Source of the DNA: Actinomyces timonensis DSM 23838
GTDB taxonomy: Bacteria > Actinomycetota > Actinomycetes > Actinomycetales > Actinomycetaceae
Direction of reading: 5' to 3'
NCBI RefSeq assembly: GCF_000295095.1
Contig: NZ_JH806634.1
Coordinates: 1-32,006 of the forward strand
DNA length: 32,006 nucleotides
The notes beneath the pieces were generated by a model. It was not told the DNA's origin, did not search any database, and saw nothing but the letters and a program-made list of their open reading frames with translations. Positions 15,271-29,651 of the stretch are shown piece by piece (the first letter of the stretch is position 1; each line of letters starts with the position of its first letter). A program made the position numbers and the translations under genes.

Positions 15271-17004
15271 GTGCGCGAGGCTGCAGGCACGATCGGCGAC
15301 GCCCGCTGGGGCGCTGGCGACTGGCACGGCATCATCACGCCGCGCGCTGCCCTCATCCTGCCCCCCGTCATCCCCATGCCGATCGTCGAGCGGCTCTGGG
15401 ACGACCTCCACGGGGACGGGCTGACGACGGCGGCCGTCCTGTGGGACGTCATCTCCAGTGTTGTCGCGCGCACGGGTGACCGGCCCGACTTCGCCTTCGT
15501 CCTCCTCGAGCCCGACGGCAACCGGCACGTGGCCGTGCGCGGCCGCGGGATCGTGCGCACCTCCCACGGGGACGTCGCCTCCGGCCCCACCTCCACCTGG
15601 ACCGAGACCATCGTCCAGCCCTCCGACACCCTCGTCCTGCTCACCCCTGACACGGGCGACGGCATCATGCGCCCCCTGGCCGACGGCATCGTGCCGGTCA
15701 GCGTCGTCGCCCTGCCCGCGCTCGCGGAGGAGGAACGGCCCGAGGGCGTGTCCACCGTCCACGACGCGGCCAGCCTCCCGCGCCGCGCCGGGGCCTCCGG
15801 TTCCTCTCCCGCCGCCAGCCGCCCCTCCGGCGATGTCCTCACCGGCGCTCCTGCCGACGCTCCGTCCGCTTCCCCAGCGGCCTCGCCGTTCGCATCGCCG
15901 TCGGTGCCGGTCGCCCCCGCGGCGCTGGCGCCTGAGGCGGGACAGCCGGAGACCGAGCCCGAGCCCGCGGCCGAGTCAACGCTGGCGGTCCCCTTCGACC
16001 CCGCGGCGATCCTCGCTGGCATGAACCAGGGATCAACCCCCGCCGAGGCCATGGGGGGCTGGACAGCCTCCGCGCCCCTCGTGCCGGAGGGCGCCGTGGG
16101 CACTCCAGCATCCTCCATCCGCTCGGCCCCGTCGGTTCCCTCGGTCGCCTCAGCGCCGCTGTACTCGGCCTCAATCGCCTCAGCCGCATCAACGGCATCG
16201 GCGCCCGCGGCCCTGTCTGGCCAGGCGGCATCGTCGGCCCCAATCGCCGCCTCCGCCCCCGTGGTCCCCTCCGCCCCCGTGGTCCCCTCCGCCCCCGTGG
16301 TCCCCTCCGCGGACATGTCCGCCCAGACCGGCCCGGGCCTCGGGGCGGTGCCCAGCCTCGCCGTCGCCCCCGAGTCCACGGGCGAGGCCTCCCTCACCAG
16401 CCCCGGCCCCCTCAAGCGCGGGAACCATGACGGCTCGACTGTCGCCGAGCTCCCCGGCGACCTCCTCGAGGAGATCCACGCGGCGCGCACCGAGCTGGCC
16501 GAGCTCCCGACGCCGGATCGCAGCGGTGTCGTCCCCTCCCACGGCGCGCGCGTCCTGTCCGCGTTCTGCGCGAACTCGCACCCCAATCCGACCCACCTCG
16601 TGGCCTGCCGCGTCTGCGGGGCGCCCCTGGAGGGACCTGTCCGGCTCGCGCCGCGCCCCGTGCTCGGCAGCCTCATCCTGTCCGACGGGCGCGTCCTCTC
16701 CCTCGGCGGGCCGATCGTGCTTGGGCGGCGCCCCTCCGCTGAGAGGGTCGCCACCTTCGACGCCGGCTTCCCCACCTGCATCAAGGTCTCCAGCCCTGAC
16801 CGGCAGATCTCCCGCAACCACCTCCTCATCGACATCGACGAGTGGTCGGTCCTCGCTCGGGACCTGTCGAACACGAACGGCACCGTCCTGCTTCGCGAGG
16901 GCTCCGCGCCCGTCCACCTGTCCCGCGTGGAGACCACCATCCTGCGCAGCGGGGACGTGCTCGAGCTCGGCGAGGGCGTGACCGCGCGCTTCGAGGCCGC
17001 CTGA
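15271..17004 (+). CDS. FHA-domain protein with unknown N-terminal domain and zinc-ribbon motif
   Basis: 577 residues, probably cytosolic. Three parts. (1) Residues 1-165 form a folded domain of unrecognised family (WHGIITPRAALILPPVIP, FAFVLLEPDGNRHVAVRGRG, DTLVLLTPDTGDGIM). (2) A long Ala/Pro/Ser linker, about 170-400, contains three exact copies of SAPVVP. (3) A short zinc-ribbon-like motif (C433, H437, C446, C449 in ...VACRVCGAPL) precedes the C-terminal FHA domain (about 465-577). The phosphothreonine-binding residues are present: R486 in LGRRPSA, S514-R-N-H517 and S533-NTNGT538, so the domain should bind pThr. GTG 15271 was chosen for the AGGAGG site. The stop shares one base with the kinase ATG, making a coupled FHA-kinase pair. 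It is likely a substrate or scaffold of that kinase (inference). Confidence 0.87.
   Translation: MREAAGTIGDARWGAGDWHGIITPRAALILPPVIPMPIVERLWDDLHGDGLTTAAVLWDVISSVVARTGDRPDFAFVLLEPDGNRHVAVRGRGIVRTSHGDVASGPTSTWTETIVQPSDTLVLLTPDTGDGIMRPLADGIVPVSVVALPALAEEERPEGVSTVHDAASLPRRAGASGSSPAASRPSGDVLTGAPADAPSASPAASPFASPSVPVAPAALAPEAGQPETEPEPAAESTLAVPFDPAAILAGMNQGSTPAEAMGGWTASAPLVPEGAVGTPASSIRSAPSVPSVASAPLYSASIASAASTASAPAALSGQAASSAPIAASAPVVPSAPVVPSAPVVPSADMSAQTGPGLGAVPSLAVAPESTGEASLTSPGPLKRGNHDGSTVAELPGDLLEEIHAARTELAELPTPDRSGVVPSHGARVLSAFCANSHPNPTHLVACRVCGAPLEGPVRLAPRPVLGSLILSDGRVLSLGGPIVLGRRPSAERVATFDAGFPTCIKVSSPDRQISRNHLLIDIDEWSVLARDLSNTNGTVLLREGSAPVHLSRVETTILRSGDVLELGEGVTARFEAA
16252..16305 (+). repeat. 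Three perfect 18-bp in-frame tandem repeats
   Basis: TCCGCCCCCGTGGTCCCC occurs three times without a mismatch, encoding SAPVVP x3 in the linker of the FHA protein. Exact identity points to recent expansion or ongoing slippage; copy number may vary between strains. Confidence 0.9.

Positions 17005-29651: not shown

Follow-up and report, generated by a model that had tools for sequence, protein, structure and literature searches.

Among the described systems, the PFNA cluster of Bifidobacterium is the most relevant one to the locus presented here. In the accessible parts of the pertinent papers its gene order is given as pkb2-fn3-aaa-atp-duf58-tgm(-prpC-hypothetical-fha) (PMC8430577, PMC6803598, PMC10688814). 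The kinase Pkb2 has a reported substrate within its own operon; according to the available part of PMC8430577, it phosphorylates the operon's MoxR in B. longum. The FN3 protein of B. longum comprises 1994 amino acids, with FN3 from residue 1494 onwards; fragments of it bind TNF in vitro, and sensing of host cytokines has been proposed for Bifidobacterium (PMC10688814, as far as accessible). We here describe a locus of Actinomyces timonensis DSM 23838 for which sequence comparison makes a strong case as a rearranged and split homologue of the PFNA cluster.

The DNA analysed, called the window in the following, is a stretch of 32,006 nucleotides (G000:C3:1-32006) from a genome of 2.93 Mb (G000); G and L numbers denote genomes and loci, respectively. 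The part studied lies to the right of positions 1-12700. On the plus strand, FHA protein A (15271..17004, 577 aa; PF00498, 32.4 bits), which has homologues at the matching place in relatives, is followed by a membrane Ser/Thr kinase (17004..18422; PF00069, 2.1e-35). The stop codon TGA of the former and the ATG of the latter have one base in common. An earlier note on this DNA had the kinase coupled to an FHA protein by this 1-bp overlap; the overlap is real, yet the order was loosely put, the FHA gene standing before the kinase. On the minus strand, the giant surface protein (23853..29708; start at 29708 or 29651; PF17963, PF17892, PF17803 and PF00041) precedes a DUF58 protein (22317..23558; PF01882, 4.7e-11, and alignment), the TgpA-like pseudo-transglutaminase, here Tgm (20026..22320; PF01841, 1.4e-17, alignment, AF2 model and fold match), and FHA protein B (18575..20029; PF00498). 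DUF58 and Tgm overlap by 4 bp, as do Tgm and FHA B. The C-terminal part of a third FHA protein of the RDD-FHA type occupies 31224..32006 of the minus strand; its gene begins past the right window edge. Every gene that the earlier note had named was thus recovered, including the converging minus-strand operon, whose giant has 1951 codons, and the third FHA protein to the right, which ends at 31224.

FHA protein A consists of an N-terminal domain common to its relatives, a Ser/Ala/Pro-rich linker, a CX12CX2C stretch and a C-terminal FHA domain, in which GR, SRxH and NG motifs are seen by reading. In FHA protein B an RDD membrane domain was not found; its counterpart in L046 is of the RDD+FHA type. 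The third FHA gene is interrupted by a run of N to the right of the window (L022), with the RDD-FHA frame differing between the two sides of the run; in view of these N a frameshift there is unproven. The locus is flanked by an ABC-F ATPase (12895-15174) and a FasR-like TetR regulator (29860-30543). Both keep their place in several relatives and mark the same chromosomal site. A promoter scan gave one weak promoter-like site 5' of the giant (29756-29727; 0.3 expected), a terminator scan no terminator-like site (1.5 expected), and a search for tandem repeats short repeats only.

The kinase looks competent. K44, D133, N138 and D151-F-G (numbering from codon 17001) do not vary among 21 homologues. 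In the AF2 model (mean pLDDT 76), the kinase domain is followed by a linker of low confidence, a helix (342-360) with the look of a TM segment, and an ectodomain of seven strands (about 391-465), to which a short strand at 372-375 is added. The calling of TM segments, here and below, is based on AF2 helices and on reading of the sequence. The ectodomain contains two invariant Cys. Pfam fn3 was not found in the 21 kinases at E<=1. A profile of the 21 ectodomains, when compared by hhalign with the FN3 repeats of the giants, scored 85.7% with an E value of 5.5e-6 in a single comparison, against 1.4% for the giants' Ig repeats, the sole control; kinase ectodomain and giant thus appear to share a domain type. 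The external FN3-like domain that the earlier note had ascribed to the kinase is borne out by this profile-profile match. A Foldseek search with the whole kinase model proved unsuitable for the ectodomain, as the 50 matches shown all follow the kinase domain. That the kinase phosphorylates the FHA proteins, another proposal of the note, would be consistent with its motifs and with the FHA motifs as read.

The giant starts with an N-terminal hydrophobic segment and, by reading, a propeller-like region. Eleven repeats of the Ig/cadherin type at 421-1471 are followed by FN3-like domains at 1474-1937, three according to Pfam and five according to an iterated profile. Its frame is interrupted by a TAG (23853-23855), 93 codons short of the homologous end. 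Past the TAG the frame stays open to 23571, ending 12 bp from DUF58; these 93 codons plus TGA (23571..23852, minus strand) belong to a continuous ORF in L064, L069 and L070. In relatives this region is part of the giant, a C-terminal Cys-containing domain that was seen in 27 of 102 giants, 21 of the 27 coming from the genus. The giants of A. denticolens and A. gaoshouyii are uninterrupted and have no stop at the position of the TAG, which may be a nonsense mutation, an assembly error or a site of readthrough. Across families, the giants measure about 1800-2400 codons from stop to stop, apart from a shorter one cut by a contig end. This fairly constant length fits a structural, wall-spanning role.

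Two samples underlie the counts given below. The named survey was a scan with the Tgm alignment that yielded 420 relatives, the best 80 of which were kept as named loci; its seeds were two patterns, one of which partly fixes residues 496-504 and leaves the Cys position 495 free. For the order-wide set, an evenly drawn sample of the order (99 genomes, 52 genera, 20 families) was searched with the window Tgm as the sole query. This set is composed of 40 hand-picked loci from the listed matches, strong and weak ones, plus L055, L056, L057 and L065, which makes 44. A “long giant” is a co-directional frame of >3000 bases within 13 kb. The HMMs for gene calls were built from loci of the genus and from G014, G016 and G018, which implies high scores there by construction.

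Within the genus, an orthologue of the kinase occurs in 11 of 13 genomes, and the same 11 have the DUF58 orthologue; G002 and G008 contain neither a PFNA-type kinase nor a PFNA-type DUF58. Kinase and giant lie on one stretch in G000, G003, G005, G007, G009, G010, G011 and G012, while contig ends fall between them in G001, G004 and G006. The usual order in the relatives is giant, MoxR, DUF58, Tgm and FHA gene, converging on kinase-FHA-FHA. At the window locus there is no MoxR and no PP2C. The same 12-bp junction of giant and DUF58 without MoxR is found in A. denticolens and A. gaoshouyii, the nearest named relatives, whose Tgm is 88% and 86% identical, respectively. Identity to A. denticolens amounts to 74% for FHA A and B, 84% for the giant, 88% for Tgm, 92% for the kinase and 95% for DUF58. 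Among the best 80 of the 420 relatives, MoxR is missing in 4 of the 70 loci with a long giant, A. denticolens and A. gaoshouyii being joined by A. oricola L081, which has its giant in two frames, and an Arthrobacter MAG (L140). PP2C was found in none of the 24 Actinomyces loci of this set, some of which are cut; its absence at the window is, therefore, ordinary for the genus.

The sole PFNA-type MoxR of G000 is located elsewhere, at C1:525115-526077. It shares 81-83% identity with the MoxR found in locus 1 of relatives (76% over the partial one in G006); three other MoxR of the genome are 43-48% identical to it. The second locus to which it belongs, G000:C1:518979-526077 (L020, L062), reads rpoB-rpoC-MoxR-RDD/FHA-PP2C-FHA-short kinase. 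The kinase there has about 360 residues and no TM segment visible by reading; giant, DUF58 and Tgm are absent from this locus. G004 has the same gene set in its second locus, with MoxR 98% and PP2C 88% identical. In both genomes the PFNA-type MoxR is found only in locus 2 and the PFNA-type DUF58 only in locus 1; the losses are thus complementary. A fuller second locus with giant, MoxR, DUF58, Tgm, RDD-FHA, PP2C, FHA and kinase occurs in G009 and G006; the giant is seen in G009, and G006 is cut by a contig end. In G007 and G010 the second locus is down to FHA and kinase. By a MoxR tree, the remaining MoxR may descend from either locus 1 or locus 2. The MoxR copies of the two G009 loci (L065, L053) group together with that of A. 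bovis (95/98), which suggests exchange between the loci or gene conversion. A further MoxR-DUF58 pair is seen in L021 (G000:C1:790000-806000), with FHA and PP2C genes some 3 kb off.

Of course, the missing MoxR, the lack of an RDD domain in FHA B, the short second kinase and the TAG in the giant could simply be steps of degradation, without any partnership of the two loci in trans. MoxR and the C-terminus of the giant are indeed gone from the window, the second loci of G007 and G010 retain FHA and kinase only, A. oricola L081 combines a missing MoxR with a giant in two frames, and G002 and G008 do without PFNA-type kinase and DUF58. Four further genera of the family to which the window belongs, represented by 5 genomes, gave no Tgm match in any of them. 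The other genes of the window locus, however, are open and 74-95% identical to those of A. denticolens, the locus with MoxR and PP2C has been retained (98% and 88% identity in G004), and the changed active site of Tgm has been kept. We consider decay an unlikely explanation.

Beyond the genus, the best 80 of the 420 Tgm relatives include Schaalia, Peptidiphaga, Microbacterium, Agreia, Herbiconiux, Arthrobacter, Flexivirga, Nostocoides, Propionibacteriaceae and others besides Actinomyces itself. Most of the non-Actinomyces loci among them form one co-directional run of giant, MoxR, DUF58, Tgm, FHA, PP2C, FHA and kinase. Of the 80, 70 have a long giant; each of the remaining 10 has a contig end on the giant side, no more than 4 kb from Tgm. 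With cut loci counted, MoxR is found in 70 of these 80, DUF58 in 79, the kinase in 70, PP2C in 47 and any FHA gene in 72. In two Arthrobacter MAG loci (L140, L145) the kinase is directly 3' of Tgm, with neither PP2C nor FHA, and L140 also lacks MoxR. With E<=1e-10 as the cutoff, 57 of the 99 genomes and 29 of the 52 genera sampled evenly across the order have a Tgm/TgpA relative, ordinary TgpA included. In G064, a member of the genus, the one Tgm match is an ordinary triad of MoxR, DUF58 and TgpA. The core of giant, MoxR, DUF58 and Tgm was seen in 13 of the 20 sampled families, as judged from the window's family and the hand-picked matches (f1, f3-f5, f7-f9, f11-f13, f17, f19 and f20, the f numbers denoting families); its spread across the order is patchy.

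The PFNA order itself is found in six genomes of family f3 (L159-L163, L055): L159-L161 show kinase-giant-MoxR-DUF58-Tgm-PP2C with an FHA gene nearby, L055, L162 and L163 the first five of these genes. Homology with the f3 genomes holds for each gene individually. The window Tgm finds the Tgm of f3 with E values of 1.5e-46 (G049) and 1.9e-40 (G108). The window giant finds that of G014 at 3e-124 to 6e-124. Phosphoketolase was considered as a mark of bifidobacteria; it is present in 7 of 7 f3 genomes, but also in 2 of the 3 non-f3 genomes tested, and its mere presence was rejected as unspecific. Similarity to solved structures was used instead. The phosphoketolase of G049, one of the six genomes, aligned over its length (residues 13-842) to 3ahc with 1720 bits, the next group below 3ai7 and 8io6 reaching 862 bits. 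We take 3ahc and 3ai7 to be Bifidobacterium structures and, since the G049 enzyme is closest to 3ahc, f3 to be Bifidobacteriaceae.

The arrangement recurs in dozens of genomes, and chance can be rejected as its cause. The earlier note had made its case depend on conservation of the neighbourhood outside this strain; the genes do travel together across families, so that this objection fails and the note's idea of a single conserved system is supported. A report on PFNA outside bifidobacteria was not found in the open literature, subscription papers lying outside the search; PMC12067865, in its accessible part, cites a paper on PFNA distribution (Russ J Genet 2022). The presence of a PFNA-type core outside bifidobacteria contradicts the printed statement that PFNA occurs only there.

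This spread also bears on the idea of a sensor of host immunity, in which kinase and giant would respond to cytokines of the host by adjusting colonisation. The idea can point to the FN3 fragments of B. longum that bind TNF in vitro and to TNF raising the expression of the operon (PMC8430577, PMC10688814, in the parts accessible); also, going by the titles, animals or the mouth are the source of many records from the window's genus. The same genes, with giants of about 2000 aa, are however found in Microbacterium, Agreia, Herbiconiux, Arthrobacter, Flexivirga and Nostocoides. Among the relatives in the named survey, sources suggested by the record titles include a lake (LacPavin), groundwater (GW715, nzgw), a laboratory reactor and leaves, the first three of these sources being named for MAGs with the same genes. 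With the gene set in environmental genera and MAGs, an ancestral role in immune sensing is unlikely, and we think it quite improbable that the system of the window is a sensor of host immunity, although a later co-option for this purpose is possible.

According to AF2, Tgm has membrane-type helices at its N-terminus, an external transglutaminase domain, a helix at 608-643 and a cytosolic tail. The only solved relative found by sequence is TgpA (6g49/6g4h; 8.7e-8), and 6g4h and 6g49 are also its sole fold matches by Foldseek below an E value of 0.001 (for 6g4h 2.1e-9, TM 0.66 by target and 0.27 by query, rmsd 6.5). The window protein has the TgpA fold with membrane helices, but not the Cys-His-Asp triad: the catalytic Cys is replaced by Asp495 and the His by Tyr536, while D552 is present. 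The active site of ordinary triads reads G-Y/F-C-V/T-H/Q-F/Y, that of the cluster Tgm mostly G-D-D/S/E-E-Q-Y/F.

For counting the catalytic Cys, rows gapped at its column and Tgm frames of <=900 bases had been dropped beforehand, which left one row for each of the 44 order-wide loci and 81 rows for the 80 named loci plus the window. The Cys is lost in all 32 order-wide loci that have a long giant. Where a long giant is missing (12 loci), both Cys and His are retained in 9, and the remaining 3 are Cys-less (L057, which is cut by a contig end, L196 and L199). In L196 and L199 a giant-like frame of about 400 codons lies beside the Cys-less Tgm, possibly a mini-version of the system. None of the 81 named rows, which stem from the best 80 of 420 relatives and the window, has the Cys. 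Among the 35 Cys-less order-wide Tgm, 9 still have the His, as do 56 of the 81 rows of named set and window; loss of the His is, therefore, common but not general. No residue of the Cys-His-Asp triad is left in the six f3 loci. The earlier note had called the protein a pseudo-enzyme without catalytic Cys and His. Both are indeed missing here; as a general trait, however, the loss of Cys is strongly supported, whereas many relatives retain the His.

Next to the lost Cys two residues are invariant. Glu496 is present in 35 of 35 Cys-less and in none of the 9 Cys-bearing order-wide Tgm, Gln497 in 35 of 35 and in 4 of 9, respectively. Such invariance might be read as the sign of another enzyme, in which Asp/Ser/Glu together with Glu-Gln build a new catalytic or metal site. 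Residue 495, however, varies between D, S, E, A and G, and both His and Asp are missing in many cases; binding, accordingly, fits these sites better than catalysis, and a new enzyme seems very unlikely to us.

How could these pieces work together? The best reading, which we hold to be probable if only just, is that of a split PFNA homologue: a phospho-regulated MoxR/DUF58 machine that handles a giant fibre and has a pseudo-enzyme as receptor or scaffold. The membrane kinase would sense via its FN3-like ectodomain and phosphorylate MoxR and FHA-linked partners, which PP2C would reverse. In the membrane, DUF58 protein and TgpA-like protein would both be driven by MoxR. The external domain of the latter would not catalyse but bind, acting as a receptor or scaffold by means of the invariant Glu-Gln site. 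As its client the machine would have the giant Ig/FN3 fibre and would control how this is assembled, anchored or exposed at the wall; this choice of client is a guess, and the giant is truncated here. The system may also, as the earlier note had it, sense the state of wall or surface. In the window's lineage locus 1 and locus 2 would have to work together in trans. We deduce this cross-talk from their complementary gene content only, and the other three MoxR of G000 could take the place of the locus-2 MoxR. A wider version must be called tentative and, on balance, rather doubtful: all over the Actinomycetales a TgpA-type enzyme would have been turned, perhaps once, into a non-catalytic external receptor for a giant fibre, with Cys lost and Glu-Gln fixed; the resulting machine, up to now interpreted as immune sensing by bifidobacteria and under the control of kinase, PP2C and FHA proteins, would have been split by complementary losses in the A. 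denticolens-like lineage.

If this is right, several printed views will change. PFNA could no longer be said to occur in bifidobacteria only. Its Tgm, regarded as a transglutaminase-like enzyme or cysteine protease, lacks the Cys, and the FN3 protein would no longer be seen as perhaps derived from eukaryotes for an immune dialogue. Microbacterium and Arthrobacter would become non-host laboratory models for the function of the MoxR-DUF58-TgpA triad, and the two-locus split in the A. denticolens-like lineage, if true, would be a natural experiment in trans-complementation.

Compared with known systems, the MoxR-DUF58-TgpA triads (MRP-type; TgpA of Pseudomonas aeruginosa) consist of the same three families in the same adjacency. 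They differ in that the nine Cys-bearing ones keep the His and have no giant beside them, whereas the giant-bearing loci are Cys-less with Glu-Gln. The mycobacterial moxR1 operon (MoxR, DUF58, vWA and Rip hydrolases), compared by its description only, likewise has MoxR adjoining DUF58; in the accessible part of PMC12067865 a vWA gene is described for it, but none for a giant, a Tgm, a kinase or an FHA protein, and this paper itself notes the resemblance of the mycobacterial moxR operon to PFNA. PFNA, finally, differs from the window locus in having its five genes pkb2, fn3, aaa-atp, duf58 and tgm co-directional, whereas in the window the kinase is on the other strand, FHA and kinase genes converge with the rest, MoxR is absent, and MoxR and PP2C reside in a second locus; the window also exceeds PFNA in its number of FHA genes and FN3-like domains, and its giant contains the TAG. 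Yet kinase, giant, DUF58 and Tgm are homologous in the two, giant, DUF58 and Tgm follow each other in the same relative order, and the giant, with about 2000 residues, carries its FN3 domains in the last quarter, from 1474 in the window and from 1494 in B. longum.
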